From Pseudolactococcus hodotermopsidis (GTDB taxonomy: Bacteria > Bacillota > Bacilli > Lactobacillales > Streptococcaceae): a stretch of 64,000 bases of DNA. Position 1 is the stretch's first letter, and each line of letters starts with the position of its first letter. The position numbers were made by a program, and so were the translations under genes. This document shows, in pieces, positions 11,107-49,103 of the stretch. The notes below the pieces were generated by a model. The model saw nothing but the letters and a program-made list of their open reading frames with translations. It was not told the origin of the DNA and did no database searches. The stretch is from the NCBI RefSeq assembly GCF_011170085.1, contig NZ_BLLI01000003.1, positions 1 through 64,000 on the forward strand, in the 5' to 3' direction.

Positions 11107-11255
11107 AATTTTAGTAACCTCTTTTCTTGTTTGATAATATTTTTGCATATTTTTCCTAAAATATCAAGTAAATAGATTGATTATGCTAGGAATTTCATAT
11201 ATTTAGTGAAAAATGGTATAATTGAAGTAGTAAATACTTGACATGGAGAGATAGT

Positions 11256-11957
11256 GTGGGAAAAATTATAACTTTTCTTGAAAATATTTTGAATTATTTA
11301 TGCACGATTACAGCAGATGGTTTACTAGGTTTTTTGGGAGCATTAGTTGGAGTTTTTGGTACATTTTTTGTAGTAAGATACCAAATTAAAAAAGAGCGAG
11401 AAATCGCTAAGGAAAATGATAGACCAATTCTAAAATCAACTAACTCAACTGGATACATAGATTTTGATGATGAACAGACTAAATCTATTGAATTGAATAT
11501 TGTTAATGCAGGAGAAACACCTGCTTTAGATATTCATGTTGAAGTACGTACTTTCTATAAAAATTATTTTCTTAAGGTAAAAGAAGAACTTTCTATTGAT
11601 AAGATTTTTGATAGGAAGTATGATGTACTGATGGGTGGAGATTTACTAAAAATTCCTATTGTCGTAAATAACTTTGAAAAAATGAGGAAAAATAGTGAAG
11701 GTTGCTCAATTTTTATTGATCAATTAAATAGTACTTTGGAACAAAATAATAATATGACGTTTTTTCTGAAAATAACATTTACTAATAGAGATGGGAAGAG
11801 TACTGAAGAAAAAGCAATTTTCAATTTGAAATGGTCAAACTTGAAATTTACTGATGAAAGTAGGACAATTCTTAGTTATGTGAATTTTGTTTTGGAAGCT
11901 GGTTGGGGCAAAGTTCCAGAAGGGTTTGATAGATTGAATTACAAAAAAATACATTGA
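11256..11957 (+). CDS. Unknown single-pass membrane protein
   Basis: I do not recognise this 233-residue protein. It starts with an amphipathic segment, has one clear membrane helix (about 23-43, GLLGFLGALVGVFGTFFVV) followed by basic residues (RYQIKKERE), then a soluble domain of about 175 residues rich in beta-prone and charged sequence. The start is GTG at 11256 with GGAGAG 5 nt upstream. A promoter-like GTATAAT lies at 11215-11222. The 5' region is closely copied at 13.28-13.33 kb. Base composition is more AT-rich than in neighbouring housekeeping genes, consistent with accessory DNA. Confidence 0.65.
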   Translation: MGKIITFLENILNYLCTITADGLLGFLGALVGVFGTFFVVRYQIKKEREIAKENDRPILKSTNSTGYIDFDDEQTKSIELNIVNAGETPALDIHVEVRTFYKNYFLKVKEELSIDKIFDRKYDVLMGGDLLKIPIVVNNFEKMRKNSEGCSIFIDQLNSTLEQNNNMTFFLKITFTNRDGKSTEEKAIFNLKWSNLKFTDESRTILSYVNFVLEAGWGKVPEGFDRLNYKKIH

Positions 11958-12133: not shown

Positions 12134-12173
12134 AAAAAAGCAAGGAATGCTTGCATACACATGCCTTGCTTTA
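12134..12173 (-). terminator. Terminator after fic
   Basis: AAAGCAAGG and CCTTGCTTT pair around an 18-nt loop and are followed on the minus strand by six T residues; it begins at the fic stop codon. Confidence 0.8.
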
Positions 12174-13067
12174 TTTTTTGTAGTCAATTCTAAAATAATC
12201 TAGGTGTTTTTTAAATTTATCTTGTGCCGTCAAACAAGTATCTATCAAATACCCATGTTCCTCTTCCCATTGAGATAACCCTCGATAATAAAATAGTTTC
12301 AGATTATCTTCAATGATGAAAGGCACGATATTATTTCGGAGCAATTCTTTGAACATTAGCAAACGCCCAACACGACCATTGCCGTCTTGAAAGGGATGAA
12401 TAGACTCAAAGGCATAATGAAAAGCTAAAATTTCTTCAAAAGTTTTGATTTTGTTGCTATTGTAGGTTAGAAGAAGTTGTCTCATCTTTTTAGACACTTC
12501 TTCTGGTTGACAACTTTCCTTGCCACCAACCTCGTTTGGGATCTTTTTATAATCGCCAACCGCAAACCATTCTTTTCTTGAATCACTTGTTCCATTTTTT
12601 AAGATAAAATGAAGTTCTTTAATCAATTTTTCAGTAAGCGGCTTTTTCGCCTGTTCAATGATGAGGTCAATACACCGAAAATGATTAGCCGTTTCCACAA
12701 TATCATCTACATTGAGGCTATTAGAATTTATGCCAACCGTATTTGTTTCAAAAATATATCTCGTTTGGTCATGCGTTAGCGTACTGCCCTCGATATGGTT
12801 GGAATTGTAGGTTAGGTCGATTTGGATTTTATGGTAAATCCCGCCCTTTACTTTCCCACGTTCTTCATCTTGCAAAATTTCAAGTAGTGTTCTATGATTC
12901 GAGATTACTTGATTTTTTCGTCTAGGTTTTTCAGCATTGTCGGGAATCAACCAAGTTTTTCCTTTTAATTTTGCACCTGCAATCCGACCTTGATTGGCAT
13001 AGTTACGCACTGAACGCTCTGATAGTTGCCATTTTTCTGCGATTTCTGATACTGATAAGTCTGCCAT
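12171..13067 (-). CDS. Fic/DOC family protein with N-terminal helix-turn-helix
   Basis: Fic domains transfer AMP or other groups to target proteins. The full motif HPFQDGNGR is at residues 224-232. An upstream SNHIEG (89-94) fits the inhibitory-helix motif [S/T]xxxE[G/N], so this is a class II, self-inhibited Fic protein. Residues 1-45 (SVSEIAEKWQLSERSVRNYA) form a MerR-like DNA-binding helix-turn-helix, so it may also regulate its own promoter, which carries a 13-bp inverted repeat. ATG at 13067 has GGGAAGGG upstream. Target unknown. Neighbours are accessory genes. Confidence 0.9.
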   Translation of the reverse strand: MADLSVSEIAEKWQLSERSVRNYANQGRIAGAKLKGKTWLIPDNAEKPRRKNQVISNHRTLLEILQDEERGKVKGGIYHKIQIDLTYNSNHIEGSTLTHDQTRYIFETNTVGINSNSLNVDDIVETANHFRCIDLIIEQAKKPLTEKLIKELHFILKNGTSDSRKEWFAVGDYKKIPNEVGGKESCQPEEVSKKMRQLLLTYNSNKIKTFEEILAFHYAFESIHPFQDGNGRVGRLLMFKELLRNNIVPFIIEDNLKLFYYRGLSQWEEEHGYLIDTCLTAQDKFKKHLDYFRIDYKK

Positions 13068-13152: not shown

Positions 13153-13164
13153 TCAAGCGAAGAA

Positions 13165-13237
13165 CTCAAATTTTACTCGAAACTGACAAAAAAGCACATA
13201 AATATGCTGTAATGAGAGTTATGCTCTCTATTTTTGA
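13165..13237. repeat. Left copy of a direct repeat of the tdk promoter region
   Basis: This 73-base segment matches 19669-19744 at roughly 85 percent, in the same orientation: CTCAAATTTTACTCGAAAC, GCACATAAA, and GCTCTCTATTTTTGA are shared. The right copy carries the tdk promoter. The copies bracket the R-M and toxin-antitoxin genes. Confidence 0.75.
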
Positions 13238-13276: not shown

Positions 13277-13329
13277 CTAAAAAGTGATATAATTAAACTA
13301 TTAAATAATTGACATGGAGAAATAAAGTG
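13277..13329 (+). repeat. Copy of the promoter and start region of the gene at 11256
   Basis: The stretch from AAAAAGTGATATAATTAAAC through TTGACATGGAGA and GTG resembles 11211-11258 at about 80 percent, including a TATAAT-like -10, the GGAGA ribosome site and the GTG start. After the GTG the sequences diverge: here the heptamer array begins. Confidence 0.65.
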
Positions 13330-13383
13330 ATACAATTGGACAGCCAACAGCCAACAGCCAACAGCCAACAGCCAACAGCGTAA
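13327..13383 (+). CDS. Leader ORF carrying heptanucleotide repeats, 18 codons
   Basis: GTG at 13327 has GGAGA about 8 nt upstream and opens a frame that encodes MIQLD and then glutamine-, proline- and threonine-rich residues from the CAGCCAA array, stopping at TAA 13381-13383. None of the three frames of the array contains a stop. The ribosome site is homologous to that of the gene at 11256. One added repeat would move the stop to 13461-13463, and one lost repeat would move it to 13457-13459; both lie at the ATG of the downstream methylase gene. A regulatory role is inferred. Confidence 0.55.
   Translation: MIQLDSQQPTANSQQPTA
13341..13380. repeat. Tandem heptamer array (CAGCCAA, about 5.6 copies)
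   Basis: Five perfect copies of CAGCCAA plus a partial CAGC unit. The unit length is not a multiple of three, so slippage would change the reading frame of the leader ORF. Confidence 0.95.
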
Positions 13384-13410
13384 ATTTTACGTTTTTTCGT
13401 CATATTTTAA

Positions 13411-13444
13411 TAAAAAGTCGTACTCTCAAGAGTGCGACTTTTTT
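13411..13444 (+). terminator. Intrinsic terminator-like hairpin ahead of the R-M operon
   Basis: AAAAAGTCGTACT (13412-13424) pairs with AGTGCGACTTTTT (13431-13443; one G-U pair), 6-nt loop, followed by a run of six T. It lies between the leader ORF stop and the methylase ATG at 13456, so it can attenuate transcription into the operon. Confidence 0.75.
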
Positions 13445-13455
13445 GGTGCTCTCAT

Positions 13456-14139
13456 ATGAATAAACGTCTAATTAAAAGTAAGCATCGTGTTCAAAAACAT
13501 GGAGAAGTTTTCACGCCCAGTTGGATGGTTGAGAAAATGTTAGATATTCAAGGTGTGAAAGAAGACACTTACGATGTGACGAAAACATTTTTAGAGCCAG
13601 CAGCAGGAGATGGAAATTTTCTTGTAGCGATTTTAAAGCGAAAATTAGTAGGTGTTAAAGAGACTTTCAGTCCAAAATATTGGCAAACAAAATCACTTTT
13701 TGCTTTGTCATCTATTTATGGTATTGAATTTTTGGCAGATAATCTTGAGATTGCTCGTTATCGGATGTTTCTTTATTATTTAGATTGGTATGAAGAAACA
13801 TTTGGTCAAAAATTGAATAGTAGAAAAGACATCTATAAGTCTGCTTATTTTCTTATCCAAAAAAATATTGTTCGTGGTAATACTTTAACAAAGTGTCATC
13901 CTGAAACCGGTGCGCCTATCGTATTTAATGAGTGGCGACGAGTCAAGGGAAGTGCAAGCAAAGTGGAAAGGGTTGAATTTTCTTTTGCGGAATTGTTAAA
14001 TGAGAAAATTACTTTAGAATCAGGCATTTCAGAGGGACAATTAAGTTTATTTGACCTAGAGGGCGACGATACTGAACAAAAGAAAATAATAGCTACAATC
14101 ATTGATATACAGAAAGTTTACCAATTGGAGGGAAAGTAA
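13456..14139 (+). CDS. N6-adenine DNA methylase, SAM-binding half (split methyltransferase)
   Basis: A 227-residue protein with the N-terminal part of a gamma-type adenine methylase: motif X-like HGEVFTP (15-21) and SAM-binding motif I in LEPAAGDGNF (46-55), then YGIEFLADNLEIAR. The catalytic NPPY motif is absent; it occurs in the next gene instead. The ATG at 13456 has no ribosome site of its own and follows a terminator-like hairpin. The upstream leader ORF could be coupled to it. A GTG at 13432 in frame lies inside the hairpin and is less likely. Stop TAA is immediately followed by the ATG of the next gene. Probably one subunit of a restriction-modification enzyme. Confidence 0.8.
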   Translation: MNKRLIKSKHRVQKHGEVFTPSWMVEKMLDIQGVKEDTYDVTKTFLEPAAGDGNFLVAILKRKLVGVKETFSPKYWQTKSLFALSSIYGIEFLADNLEIARYRMFLYYLDWYEETFGQKLNSRKDIYKSAYFLIQKNIVRGNTLTKCHPETGAPIVFNEWRRVKGSASKVERVEFSFAELLNEKITLESGISEGQLSLFDLEGDDTEQKKIIATIIDIQKVYQLEGK

Positions 14140-17100
14140 ATGACATCAAATTTTGAATTTTTGATGGTTGAGACGGATACAGCTATTCTTTTTGAAACAG
14201 CTAATTTTGCTGAACAAAATTATATCCAAAAAGATTATGAGGGCACATTGACTAAAGTCGGGAAAATGGCTAAAAAAGTTGCATTTTCTACCGCGGAACA
14301 GGAAAATATTATTTTGCCTGAACGTTCGACGTTTAATGATTATCTCTCTGAACTCAAACAAAATAATATCGAATCTTATATTTTAGATGGATTTTATAGT
14401 ATTAAGGGAATAGGAAATAAAGCAGCTCATGTGATTAATTCACAAGAGGCGACAAAGGAAAATGCTTTAAAAGCGCTTAATCACATCTTTATTATTCTTG
14501 TTTGGTATGTCAAGAGGTATACAGATACAGATATTCAAACAGCTTATTTGGATTTTTTGGAGCCAGAGGCTGAAAAACGTTATCAAACTGCTGAGAGAAA
14601 ACTAATTTATATTCAAAGCGGTAAGTGGTCGCAATATGATGGCTATGAAAAAATTGGTGATGCCTCAATAGAAGATTTTGAAATTGACCAGTCTCCTAAT
14701 AGTAAAGATTTGCAAAAAGCCGCAGATAATACAGTTCGTGCTTATATGAATAGGGCGGGTGTACCTTATACCATTCATTGGGCAGAACTTGCTTACTCTA
14801 AAATAGAAAAGCGCTTTTTTAGAGATTACGATGTTCATGAAGTATTAAAACGTTCGGGATATAGTCCAAAAGAATTTGGTCAAGGAAATGAGTTTTATCC
14901 TGTTGATGTTGAAACGGCAAAATCAGCTATAAAAGCTGTTAAAGAGGGGAAATCAGCACTTCAAGGAATTGCTGAGGCAAAATCAGAATATGACATTACA
15001 CTGCGTCCTGAGCAAGATGCTGCGGTTGCGAAAACTAAAAAATCCTTTAAGAAAAAGGACAAAATGCTTTGGAATGCCAAAATGCGCTTTGGGAAAACGC
15101 TGACTGCTTTGCAACTGGTAAAAGAAGAGCAATTTCAAAAAGTACTGATTATGACCCACCGTCCTGTTGTCTCAGATTCATGGTTTGAAGATTTTAACAA
15201 GATGAAAATGGCGGATTCGGGCTATTTTTTCGGTTCATATGATAAAGGTGAACGTTTAGAAAAACTCAAAACAGGCAACCAACCCTTTATTTATTTTGCC
15301 TCTATCCAGTTACTTAGGTATGGCAATGGACAAGCCAATCTTGGGCAGTTTTCAGATATTGACTGGGATTTGATTATTGTTGATGAAGCTCATGAAGGCA
15401 CGCAAACGGCGCTTGCAGAAGAGGTTTTAAAAACACTTAAAAAAGATAAGACAAAAACGCTTGAGCTTTCAGGCACGCCCTTTAACCTCCTTGACCAATA
15501 CGAAGAGAGCCAAGTTTATACATGGGATTATACCATGGAGCAGACGGCGAAACTCAAATGGTCGCTTGAAAGTCCAGATAAGCCTAATCCTTACGAGGGC
15601 TTGCCCAAGGTCTCGATGTTCACTTTTGATATGAGGCATAAAGAACATTATGCAGATGAATCAAAAGCCTTTAACTTCCGAGAATTTTTTAGCGTAGATG
15701 ATAATGGTGATTTGGTACATTTTAATGACGTGACGGCTTTTTTGGATAATCTGACTAATCCAGACAAGTTATCAAATTATCCATTTTCAACACCAGAATA
15801 TCGTGAGGAATTAAGACACACACTTTGGTTATTGCCAGGTGTCAAAGAGGCGGCAGCGTTTGAAAAATGTTTGAAAGCGCATCGGATTTTTGGACAGGAG
15901 TATGACATTATCAATGTTGTGAAAGACGGTGATGATGAAGTAGCTAGTCAAAACGATTTGGATAAGGTTAGAAATGCGATTACAAAAGACCCTAGCCAAA
16001 CTAAGACGATTACGTTGACTGTGCGTAAATTGACAACAGGTGTGAATATTCCTGAGTGGACAGCAGTATTTTTCTTGTCAAATACGACTAGCGCCATGAA
16101 TTATCTTCAGGCAGCCTTTCGAGCACAAACACCATTTTCTCATGAAAAATTAGGCATGAAGAAAAATTGTTATATCTTTGATTTTGCACCAGACCGTGCC
16201 TTGTCCGTTATGGCTGAAAGTGCGCAAATCAACTCGGATGTTGGTAAGAAAAACACCCAAGAACAAAAAGATGCCATGACACGTTTGTTGAACTTTATGC
16301 CGATTCTGGGTAGTTCTGATACTGGTATGAAAACTTTTAATGTTGATAGTATGCTGACACAGCTTAAAAAGGTCTATGCTGAGAAAGCCGTCCGTTCTGG
16401 CTTTGAAGATGATAGTCTCTATAATGATAAATTGCTGACCTTGACCGTAGGCGATGCTGAGATGTTTAAAAATCTGAGTACGATTGTCGGTAAAACGCAA
16501 GGACAGAAAAAAGTATCTGACATCGTGATTGCTGATAATGGCTTGACTGACGAAGAATACGATAAGGGAGAAAAAGCTAAGCAAAAACCAATACGCAAGC
16601 GGACTAAAGAAGAAAAGGAACTGATAGAGAAAATCAATGCTGCTAAAAAACAGCGCAAAACCATGATTTCTATCTTGCGTGGTGTCTCTATCCGTATCCC
16701 GATGATGATTTACGGCATGCAAGTTGAGCTTTCCAAAGATATTACGATAGCAGATTTTACGAAACAAGTGGATGATAAGTCTTGGCAAGAATTTATGCCT
16801 AAGGGATTTACTAAAGGCATGTTTAAGGACATTTCCCAGTATTATGATGCGGAAGTCTTTATCGAGGCAGGAAGATTAATTCGTCAACGTGCTAAATCCT
16901 ATGATAAATTGGACTTTATCGAGCGTGCTGAACGTATCGCTGAACTTTTTTCTAGCTTTAAAAATCCCGATAAAGAAACGGTTTTGACACCATGGCGTGT
17001 GGTCAATCTGCAACTTGTTAAAACCATTGGTGGCTTGAATTTTTACGATGATGATTTTGTGTCAACGACTGGTAATGCTATCTCTAGTTTACACTGGGTT

Positions 17101-18525
17101 GATAAAGACGATACGAAAGTTGTCTATACGCCTGTGAGCAAAATTCTTGAAATTAATACCAAGACAGGACTTTATCCACTTCATGCGGCGATGAGCTTAT
17201 ATTATCAAGTGCTTAATGCCAATGATGACAGTCATTTTGATGCAGATAAAGTTTATCGAAAAATTCTCAAAGAAAATATCTATGCGATTGCCAAAACGCC
17301 AATGGCGAAAACGATTACCGAACGGACCCTTGCGGGGTATCGAGATTTTGAGATGAATGTTGAATGTATTGAGGATTTTGTCGAAACGATTAAAAAAAGT
17401 CCAGAAAAAGGCAAGGAAAAAGTAGAAAAGGTGTTTGATAATATGAAATTTGATGTTGTGATTGGCAATCCGCCTTATCAGGAAAATCAGGCAAATAATA
17501 ATAAAGGGGAAGCTCTCTATCATTATTTTTATGATGTAGCAGAAAAGATTGCAGATAAATATTGTTTGATTACACCAGCGAGATTCTTGTTTAATGGAGG
17601 TTTGACTCCGAAACCTTGGAATCAAAAAATGCTCAATGATAAACATCTAAAAGTTAAATATTTTGCTCAAAATTCTAGTGAAATTTTTCCAAATACAGAT
17701 ATAAAAGGTGGGGTTGCTGTTTTATATAGAGACTCTAAAAAAGATTTTGGAGCAATTAAGACTTTTGTTCCAGACCCAATTTTAAATGGTTTATCTAGAA
17801 AATTTGAAGATAATCTAGACAAAAATTTACCTTCGATTATTTTTGGCGGGCGTTCGGATTTGAAATTTAACGATGAATTTTTAAAAGATTATCCAGAGAC
17901 AGTCCGAATGAGGCTTGCACAGATACAGATAAAGTATCCAGATGTTACAACTTTGAGTGCAAATGAAGAATATGAATTAAAATCATCTACTTTTGAATCA
18001 TTGGATGCTGTTTTCTTGAAGGAAGAACCTGCAGATAAAGATAATTATTATAAAATACTCGGACTTTATCAATCTAAACGAGTTTATCGCTGGATTCAAA
18101 AGAAATATATGGCACCTCGCTATGAAAAATCAAATAATATTGAAAAATACAAAGTATTTGTCCCTAAAGCAAATGGTAGTGGGGCAATTGGAGAAGTTCT
18201 CAGTGCGCCGCTCATCGGTGCGCCGCTCACTTCTGCAACGCCTACCTTTATTTCTATTGGCGCTTTTGATACAGAATTAGAAGCAGAAAATTTATTGAGT
18301 TATGTCAAAACAAAGTTTGCAAGGAGTTTACTTGGAATTTTGAAAATTACCCAAGATAATCCTCCATTCAAATGGGCGCATGTCCCCCTCCAAGACTTCA
18401 CAGCAAACTCAGATGTGCCATGGGAAAAATCAATCGCTGAAATCGACCAGTTTTTCTATCAAAAATACGGACTTGATGATCATGAAATTACCTTTATTGA
18501 AACAAAAGTGAAAGAGATGCTGTGA
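14140..18525 (+). CDS. Restriction-modification protein: nuclease-helicase-methylase/target recognition
   Basis: A 1461-residue multidomain protein. Residues 1-140 resemble the DUF4145-type N-terminus of restriction subunits. Residues about 150-270 look like a T5orf172/GIY-YIG-type nuclease (LIYIQ, YEKIGDAS, an arginine near 199, GVPY, KIEK near 222, GNEFYPV near 249); this is an inference from pattern only. An SF2 helicase follows at about 300-680, with MRFGKT near 315, DEAH near 414, SGTPF near 443 and TGVNIPEW near 633. NPPY, the methylase catalytic motif IV, is at about 1110 in VIGNPPYQEN, and the C-terminus is probably the target-recognition part. Methylase motif I is missing here and lies in the preceding gene. 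Confidence 0.8.
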   Translation: MTSNFEFLMVETDTAILFETANFAEQNYIQKDYEGTLTKVGKMAKKVAFSTAEQENIILPERSTFNDYLSELKQNNIESYILDGFYSIKGIGNKAAHVINSQEATKENALKALNHIFIILVWYVKRYTDTDIQTAYLDFLEPEAEKRYQTAERKLIYIQSGKWSQYDGYEKIGDASIEDFEIDQSPNSKDLQKAADNTVRAYMNRAGVPYTIHWAELAYSKIEKRFFRDYDVHEVLKRSGYSPKEFGQGNEFYPVDVETAKSAIKAVKEGKSALQGIAEAKSEYDITLRPEQDAAVAKTKKSFKKKDKMLWNAKMRFGKTLTALQLVKEEQFQKVLIMTHRPVVSDSWFEDFNKMKMADSGYFFGSYDKGERLEKLKTGNQPFIYFASIQLLRYGNGQANLGQFSDIDWDLIIVDEAHEGTQTALAEEVLKTLKKDKTKTLELSGTPFNLLDQYEESQVYTWDYTMEQTAKLKWSLESPDKPNPYEGLPKVSMFTFDMRHKEHYADESKAFNFREFFSVDDNGDLVHFNDVTAFLDNLTNPDKLSNYPFSTPEYREELRHTLWLLPGVKEAAAFEKCLKAHRIFGQEYDIINVVKDGDDEVASQNDLDKVRNAITKDPSQTKTITLTVRKLTTGVNIPEWTAVFFLSNTTSAMNYLQAAFRAQTPFSHEKLGMKKNCYIFDFAPDRALSVMAESAQINSDVGKKNTQEQKDAMTRLLNFMPILGSSDTGMKTFNVDSMLTQLKKVYAEKAVRSGFEDDSLYNDKLLTLTVGDAEMFKNLSTIVGKTQGQKKVSDIVIADNGLTDEEYDKGEKAKQKPIRKRTKEEKELIEKINAAKKQRKTMISILRGVSIRIPMMIYGMQVELSKDITIADFTKQVDDKSWQEFMPKGFTKGMFKDISQYYDAEVFIEAGRLIRQRAKSYDKLDFIERAERIAELFSSFKNPDKETVLTPWRVVNLQLVKTIGGLNFYDDDFVSTTGNAISSLHWVDKDDTKVVYTPVSKILEINTKTGLYPLHAAMSLYYQVLNANDDSHFDADKVYRKILKENIYAIAKTPMAKTITERTLAGYRDFEMNVECIEDFVETIKKSPEKGKEKVEKVFDNMKFDVVIGNPPYQENQANNNKGEALYHYFYDVAEKIADKYCLITPARFLFNGGLTPKPWNQKMLNDKHLKVKYFAQNSSEIFPNTDIKGGVAVLYRDSKKDFGAIKTFVPDPILNGLSRKFEDNLDKNLPSIIFGGRSDLKFNDEFLKDYPETVRMRLAQIQIKYPDVTTLSANEEYELKSSTFESLDAVFLKEEPADKDNYYKILGLYQSKRVYRWIQKKYMAPRYEKSNNIEKYKVFVPKANGSGAIGEVLSAPLIGAPLTSATPTFISIGAFDTELEAENLLSYVKTKFARSLLGILKITQDNPPFKWAHVPLQDFTANSDVPWEKSIAEIDQFFYQKYGLDDHEITFIETKVKEML

Positions 18526-19591: not shown

Positions 19592-19668
19592 TATACAAAT
19601 TCTTAGTTAAATTATTAATCAAGAACATCACAACCAGTCTAGTGAGTGAGGATAGAGATGCCCTTAAT

Positions 19669-19744
19669 CTCAAATTTTACTCGAAACCCACAAAAAAAGC
19701 ACATAAACATGATATAATAGAGAGTATATGCTCTCTATTTTTGA
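19669..19744. repeat. Right copy of the direct repeat, carrying the tdk promoter
   Basis: Same sequence family as 13165-13237. It contains ATGATATAAT (a good -10, 19708-19717), then a small hairpin AGAGAGTATATGCTCTCT in the tdk leader. Confidence 0.75.
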
Positions 19745-47504: not shown

Positions 47505-49103
47505 ATGTTAAGAATAACACAAATCAAACTGTCAATCAACGACGACATCGGTCAAGTGAAAACGTTAGTTGCCCGCAAATTGAAACTCAAACCAAATGAA
47601 ATTTTAGAGTTCAGAATTTACAAGGAATCAATTGATGCGAGAAAGCGTGGCGAGATTAATTTTATCTACACTGTTGATGTTAAGGTTAAGGACGAGGCAA
47701 AATTTCTGACTGGCAAGTTGAAAAATGTTGCGCTTGCTCCTGATTTGACCTATCAAAATCCTAAAATTGGCAAGCAAAAGTTGGAAAATCGACCGCTTGT
47801 CATTGGTTTTGGCCCTGCTGGCATGTATGCAGCTTTGCTCCTTGCGCAAATGGGTTATAAACCGCTTGTGCTTGAACGTGGCGAGGCGGTTGAGGCGCGT
47901 GTTAAGTCAATTGAGCGATTTTGGACGACAGGCGAGTTAAATCCAAACTCAAATGTTCAGTTTGGCGAGGGGGGTGCGGGGACATTTTCAGATGGCAAGC
48001 TGACCAGTCGGGTTAAGGACTTGCGTGGTCGTAAGGTTTTGCAAGAATTGGTCAATAACGGTGCGCCAAAGGAGATTCTTTATAAGGCACATCCGCACGT
48101 CGGAACTGACCTGTTGCGAGATATTGTCAAAAATATGCGTGAAACAATTATCGCACTTGGTGGCGAGATTCGTTTTAATGCGCAAGTGGCGCATTTTGCT
48201 GTGAAAAATGGGACACTAACAGGCGTACAACTTGATTCAGGTGAAGAAATCGCTTGTCAACAAGCGATTTTAGCGATTGGCCATAGTGCGCGCGATACTT
48301 TTCATGCGCTTTATGATAATGGCGTTCAGATGACGGCGAAACCTTTTGCTGTTGGTGTGCGAATTGAACATCCGCAGACGGTAATCAACAAGGCGCAGTA
48401 TAAGGAATTTGCAGGTCATTCAAAACTAGGCGCTGCGGAATATCGTTTGACTTATAAAGCGAGTAATGGTCGTGGTGTTTACACCTTTTGTATGTGTCCT
48501 GGTGGACTTGTTGTGCCGTCAACATCTGAAGTGGGGCATTTGGTAACAAATGGTATGAGTGAACAGGCACGTGACCAAAAAAATGCCAATAGCGGCTTGT
48601 TGGTGCAAGTTTTTCCAGAAGATTTTCCAAGTCATCATCCGCTTGCGGGCATTGATTTTCAGCGAGAATTAGAGCAAAAAGCCTTTGAGCTTGGTGGAAG
48701 TACCTATCAAGCGCCAGCCCAATTAGTTGGCGATTTTCTCCAAAATAAGCCCTCAACAGCTATGGAAAGCGTTGTACCGAGTTATTGTTTGGGTGTGAAA
48801 CCAACGAATCTGGCAGACTTGTTTCCAGATTATATCACGGTTGCTATGCGAGAATCTTTGACTGAATTTGATAAAAAATTGCACGGCTTTGCCATGGCTG
48901 ATGCTGTGATGACAGGTGTTGAGTCACGTTCATCTTCGCCTTTGAGAATTAATCGCGACGAGGAAAGTTTTCAATCTGTTTCAACAACTGGCATTTATCC
49001 GAGTGGTGAAGGAGCAGGCTTTGCAGGTGGCATTGTCTCAGCTGCGATTGATGGTTTGAAATGTGCTGAGGCGCTGATTCGAGAGTTTTCGCCTGTTGAT
49101 TGA
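47505..49103 (+). CDS. NAD(P)/FAD-dependent oxidoreductase, unknown substrate
   Basis: A 532-residue flavoprotein with an unusual N-terminal ferredoxin-like part (1-95), then the FAD site VIGFGPAGMYAALLLAQMGY and a conserved block NVQFGEGGAGTFSDGKLTSR. Near the end GIYPSGEGAGFAGGIVSAA completes the flavin site. The family is widespread in Firmicutes and annotated only as FAD-dependent oxidoreductase. It follows the EEP gene by 14 bases, likely in one transcript. Confidence 0.88.
   Translation: MLRITQIKLSINDDIGQVKTLVARKLKLKPNEILEFRIYKESIDARKRGEINFIYTVDVKVKDEAKFLTGKLKNVALAPDLTYQNPKIGKQKLENRPLVIGFGPAGMYAALLLAQMGYKPLVLERGEAVEARVKSIERFWTTGELNPNSNVQFGEGGAGTFSDGKLTSRVKDLRGRKVLQELVNNGAPKEILYKAHPHVGTDLLRDIVKNMRETIIALGGEIRFNAQVAHFAVKNGTLTGVQLDSGEEIACQQAILAIGHSARDTFHALYDNGVQMTAKPFAVGVRIEHPQTVINKAQYKEFAGHSKLGAAEYRLTYKASNGRGVYTFCMCPGGLVVPSTSEVGHLVTNGMSEQARDQKNANSGLLVQVFPEDFPSHHPLAGIDFQRELEQKAFELGGSTYQAPAQLVGDFLQNKPSTAMESVVPSYCLGVKPTNLADLFPDYITVAMRESLTEFDKKLHGFAMADAVMTGVESRSSSPLRINRDEESFQSVSTTGIYPSGEGAGFAGGIVSAAIDGLKCAEALIREFSPVD

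Follow-up and report, generated by a model that had tools for sequence, protein, structure and literature searches.

A heptamer-repeat leader peptide as a probable phase-variable attenuator of a restriction-modification operon in Streptococcaceae

A restriction-modification (R-M) operon in the window, the 64,000-nucleotide stretch of DNA analyzed here, is preceded by a short leader open reading frame that runs through an array of CAACAGC heptamers and is followed by a predicted terminator. Judging from the sequence, we consider it quite likely that this leader-peptide attenuator, whose frame depends on how many CAACAGC units are present, is a phase-variation switch for the R-M operon. The switch is probably real; the anatomy of the locus, its frames, the recurrence of the arrangement and a polymorphism of a (TA)n version were observed. 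The window is part of contig C3; the genome, of 2.3 Mb, is from a Streptococcaceae genus, probably Pseudolactococcus (Lactococcus_A), that was represented by 12 species.

Transcription is predicted to start at about 13300 from a promoter/5'UTR cassette with an extended -10 element (TGATATAAT, 13285-13293, + strand), positioned from the sequence and present in all four cassette copies. The Shine-Dalgarno (SD) sequence GGAGA of the leader (13316-13320, +) lies 6 nt 5' of the start codon GTG 13327, a spacing that is identical in a second module on contig C18 (ATG) and in a third cassette copy (GTG 11256). As claimed in the preliminary description, the frame opened by this GTG runs through the heptamer array (13340-13379, +), which holds 5.7 copies with a 100% match and is the top-scoring tandem repeat of the whole window. 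In its present frame the leader encodes 18 aa (13327-13383, +) and ends at TAA 13381-13383. The terminator-like hairpin described before the methylase gene was likewise recovered as a predicted intrinsic terminator at 13412-13443 (+), with a folding energy of -18.3 kcal/mol (z = -5.1 versus dinucleotide shuffles) and a T run on its 3' side (13439-13444); it is conserved in the sister species G011. A simple terminator scan did not list this hairpin because the A/T tract was absorbed into the stem. The methylase gene starts within ATGAATAA (13456-13463, +). Its ATG 13456 had been described as lacking a ribosome site, which has to be corrected, as a weak SD-like GGTG (13445-13448, +) lies 7 nt upstream, with a duplex energy of -7.1 kcal/mol that is about average for the long ORFs of the window. 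A comparison with Rfam yielded no leader match above gathering score, and an origin of the leader from an Rfam family or a riboswitch was rejected on this ground.

The leader was then translated in silico with 0, +1 and +2 and with -1, -2 and -3 heptamer units. With the present count, translation ends at TAA 13381-13383, 28 nt before the hairpin (OFF frame), and in the other two repeat states the frame crosses the hairpin and stops at TAA 13461-13463 (one unit more) or TGA 13457-13459 (two units more), both of which overlap the methylase start. These three states and their stops are exactly those given in the preliminary description. Of the three leader frames, it is the closed one that is in phase with the methylase, and a leader-methylase fusion protein is therefore not possible. 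An ordinary in-gene frame switch was excluded, since the in-phase frame is closed in C3, in C18 (TAG 2711) and in the (TA)n loci described below. When the 76-nt spacer between array and gene was subjected to dinucleotide shuffling, exactly two open frames, both ending within -3 to +8 of the ATG, were obtained in 2.5% of the shuffles for C3 and in 1.5% for the independent C18 module; these frequencies apply per module and carry no correction for the fact that the C3 site was chosen beforehand in the preliminary description. The C18 module was found through the similarity of its cassette and not through its frames.

According to the proposed mechanism, transcription would begin at about 13300 and ribosomes would enter at GGAGA/GTG 13327. 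With the leader in the OFF frame, they would leave at TAA 13381, the terminator would form and, save for leakage, the operon would stay untranscribed. Once one or two units have been gained or lost, translation would proceed across the hairpin and prevent it from closing, and the ribosomes would be released on the methylase start codon, where reinitiation at the ATG, aided by the weak GGTG, might follow. Two of the three repeat states would thus be ON, and the sequenced genome would be OFF. Of this course, we infer that the leader is translated, that the terminator is active, that the frame switches and that ribosomes reinitiate. Switching may be slow with arrays as short as those of C3 and C18 (5.7 and ~3.3 copies). 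Frame-dependent ribosomal antitermination, with two of three states ON and the present one OFF, had already been put forward in the preliminary description, and this core is backed by the C18 module, by R-M relatives with other repeats, by the (TA)n polymorphism between identical flanks and by the pil1 precedent. Neither a requirement for the restart at the ATG nor a copy number that varies within this species is supported so far: as the sequences read, reinitiation is accessory, because the methylase has the weak GGTG and the other loci, including the Streptococcus versions, have good SDs of their own.

The mechanism is not new in kind, as pil1 and pil3 of Streptococcus gallolyticus, a member of the same family, operate in this way. 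In pil1, GCAGA repeats alter the length of the leader peptide, and out-of-frame counts raise transcription (Danne, 2014; PMC3894217). Chloramphenicol had the effect expected for a dependence on translation, mutation of the leader start led to loss and deletion of the terminator to gain, and the switch works in Lactococcus lactis (PMC3894217). Leaders that end at least 28 nt before the hairpin represent the low state (PMC3894217). The OFF gaps found here match this rule, and the R-M operon is therefore probably switched by ribosomal antitermination. Both systems have a non-triplet tandem repeat in a short leader ORF with an SD, a terminator between the leader and the first gene and one low frame that stops at least 28 nt before the hairpin, and in the heptamer modules, as in pil1, two of three states are ON. 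However, pil1 controls pili and has GCAGA units, whereas heptamer, TA or TTCC units precede R-M genes here. The ON frames of pil1 end at or within the hairpin or just before or after it, and pilA lies ~130 bp further on, whereas the ON frames described here traverse the entire hairpin and have their stops directly on the start of the gene, adding a possible termination-reinitiation. Because the genes behind the leader are R-M genes and not sortase-assembled pilus genes, the locus is a variant of the pil1-type mechanism and not a pil locus.

In methyltransferases of the modA type and the Campylobacter Cj0031 type, slipped-strand repeats lie inside the methylase gene and the in-frame state is ON. 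They share with the present locus the control of a DNA methylase, and of restriction, by slipped-strand repeats, but here the in-frame state is closed, the methylase has its own start and the repeat lies outside the methylase ORF. In the attenuators of the Firmicutes resistance genes tet(M), msr(D) and bmrB, a translated leader decides on terminator formation in response to a drug-affected ribosome. The leader-terminator logic is the same, whereas the state of the present locus would be written in the DNA as a repeat number.

The promoter/SD cassette recurs on contig C18 of the same genome (G000, locus L156). The first 50 bases are like those of C3 and are followed by ~3.3 heptamers and by an unrelated spacer with its own terminator, behind which a full-length MmeI-type R-M gene is located. 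In C18, one frame meets an early stop at TAG 2711, again 28 nt before the hairpin, and the other two continue as far as the gene start, where they end with TAG at +5 and TAA at -2; by its frame, C18 is presently ON. At this locus (L156:2795-7175), genes that are PDC-S32-like and helicase-like lie behind the MmeI gene, and the three form a defence cluster at the contig end. The third cassette copy (11209-11258) has no repeats and precedes a gene for a 233-aa protein (region 11209-11957) that has no Pfam or PADLOC match, and the cassette is therefore indicated to comprise promoter, SD and start codon. The orthologous locus of G011 harbors 6 perfect units in the same frame as C3 and the same hairpin, and both overlapping stops are kept, with TGA in place of TAA in one of them. 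In a relaxed search of the family, the hits outside the genus were mainly a recurring site ending in GACATG or GATATG and not the cassette; a pattern of three heptamers, applied to genome contigs, matched for the most part unrelated arrays of other phyla, and no cassette match was present in the viral contigs.

A second promoter-like match, TTGACA-16-TACAAT (13309-13336, +), which is absent from the preliminary description, overlaps the leader start. If used, it would give rise to a transcript that begins inside the array and does not contain the leader start codon, which could speak against the switch. The leader would then never be translated, the repeats and open frames would be incidental and the terminator would merely limit expression. 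Although the match in C3 agrees with the consensus at 11 of 12 positions and has an extended -10, and a similar match exists in C18, we regard this explanation as highly improbable: the upstream TG-TATAAT and the SD are common to all four cassettes, the third copy has no second (TACAAT) -10 but keeps SD and start codon, the streptococcal leaders lack the TTGACA-TACAAT promoter, and a chance origin of the frame pattern has the low frequencies given above in two independent sequences.

The upstream DNA was also examined for MmeI protein homologues from across the family and the order. Nine Streptococcaceae homologues have the order SD, leader ORF, terminator and gene, seven with (TA)n, one with (TTCC)n and one without an array. 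The seven (TA)n genomes belong to the large genus g5 (inferred to be Streptococcus); their arrangement is SD, ATG, (TA)n, terminator, SD and ATGGCTAA, with n = 8, 15, 5, 10, 16, 6 and 10 and predicted states, in the same order, of OFF, OFF, ON, ON, ON, OFF and ON. In all eight of these nine loci that have an array, (TA)5-16 or (TTCC)5, exactly one frame reaches ATGGCTAA, and in the (TA)n loci it stops at +5 to +7. G352, with (TTCC)5, follows the same frame logic and is predicted to be OFF, and the open leader of G115, which has no array, is predicted to be ON. One of three states is ON in the TA and TTCC loci, where two frames stop early and one crosses, versus two of three in the heptamer modules. 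The OFF gap between early stop and hairpin, 28 nt in both C3 and C18, is ~29-34 nt in the TA loci and ~37-41 nt in the TTCC locus. A stop at +5 to +7 of the MmeI gene was found in 9/9 leader-bearing loci versus 1/15 of the other loci examined, a comparison that ignores kinship. Among viral contigs, MmeI relatives of the (TA)n type were absent, and plasmids and phages gave no match to the (TA)n leader.

The position of the stops might also be explained by a mainly translational switch, in which the terminator leaks and ribosomes that end on ATGAATAA reinitiate at the methylase start. Both ON stops overlap this start codon, the stop at +5 to +7 goes along with a leader and the SD of the methylase is weak. 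However, C18 and the (TA)n loci keep the same plan with good gene SDs (duplexes of -12.3 and -10.7 kcal/mol), so that coupling alone would not be needed; a strong terminator is predicted at every array-bearing locus examined except G309, where it has decayed; and pil1 acts at the RNA level (PMC3894217). Such a switch is thus very unlikely to be the main mode of control, and attenuation by the terminator is preferred.

The best evidence here for arrays of this type changing in length, and with it the predicted state, comes from two species, G242 and G131, whose (TA)n loci have 194/194 identical flanking positions and 99.6% identity over the first 900 bases of the gene, yet n = 16 (ON) in G242 and n = 6 (OFF) in G131. 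A constitutive attenuator that formerly switched, with an array too short to slip usefully, would instead be stably OFF in C3 and stably ON in C18. The arrays are indeed short, the two sister-species copies of the C3 locus are in the same frame, and G309 ((TA)5, decayed terminator) and G115 look locked ON. The 100% intact array of C3 and the 6 perfect units of G011, on the other hand, argue for recent slippage or conversion, and the unit count differs between C3 and C18. A locked state of the C3 and C18 loci is therefore considered unlikely.

Candidate attenuators with unrelated slippery repeats (heptamer, TA and TTCC) occur repeatedly before R-M genes of Streptococcaceae, and we lean towards the view that they represent a widespread, unrecognized class of transcriptional phase switches for phage defence and the methylome. 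This recurrence with three repeat types is of greater interest than the single locus. An R-M case of a leader-attenuator phase switch was not found in the literature searched, which mostly excluded subscription papers, and surveys of repeats centred on genes would miss such switches, as the methylase gene itself does not contain the repeat. If the proposal is correct, restriction and methylation would toggle as whole transcription units, phage resistance, DNA uptake and methylation patterns would be affected, and strain-specific methylomes and apparently silent methylases would be explained in part. Any genome can be searched with the rule of frame and terminator, by which the ON or OFF state would be predictable from the sequence.

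The operon behind the C3 leader encodes an N6-adenine methylase subunit of 227 aa with motif I, which is MmeI/Eco57I-like (13456-14139, +), and a type IIG-like R-M protein of 1461 aa with a helicase and an Eco57I-type methylase domain (14140-18525, +). The adenine methylase is apparently split (13456-18525), with motif I in the 227-aa protein and the NPPY motif in the 1461-aa helicase protein, and the small separate subunit is kept in homologues. In other genera, homologues of this operon are leaderless and are preceded by an ordinary promoter and SD, so that the repeat switch is not an essential part of the R-M system. Plasmid homologues of the C3 R-M genes align only from ~13468 onward and the leader is absent from them. 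The R-M operon, together with a MazEF/PemK pair, is flanked by an imperfect direct repeat of ~73 bases (13164-13236 and 19668-19743), an arrangement suggestive of an island of 6.5 kb that was inserted at the 5' region of tdk; the second copy is situated right where the thymidine-kinase gene begins. A divergent gene at 12171-13067, which encodes a Fic-domain protein with an HTH and matches the PADLOC candidate PDC-S04, adjoins the operon.

Outside R-M genes, sixteen perfect CAACAGC units were found within a leader ORF of another genome (L158; G006:C3, ~48325-48450), ~400 bases before a gene for a 1190-aa surface-protein-like product. One frame extends 59 bases beyond the array to TAATG, shortly before a strong hairpin, and the same switch possibly acts on an adhesin there. 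At three further loci (L267, L268 and L278) a Cro-like HTH gene lies before the MmeI homologue and adjoins or overlaps the start codon of the latter, a different partner in the same position. Five leaderless streptococcal MmeI homologues (L222, L225, L226, L229 and L231) share long inverted repeats in the promoter region, for example GATATACTACAGTATATC followed by TTGACA, which resemble operator sites.
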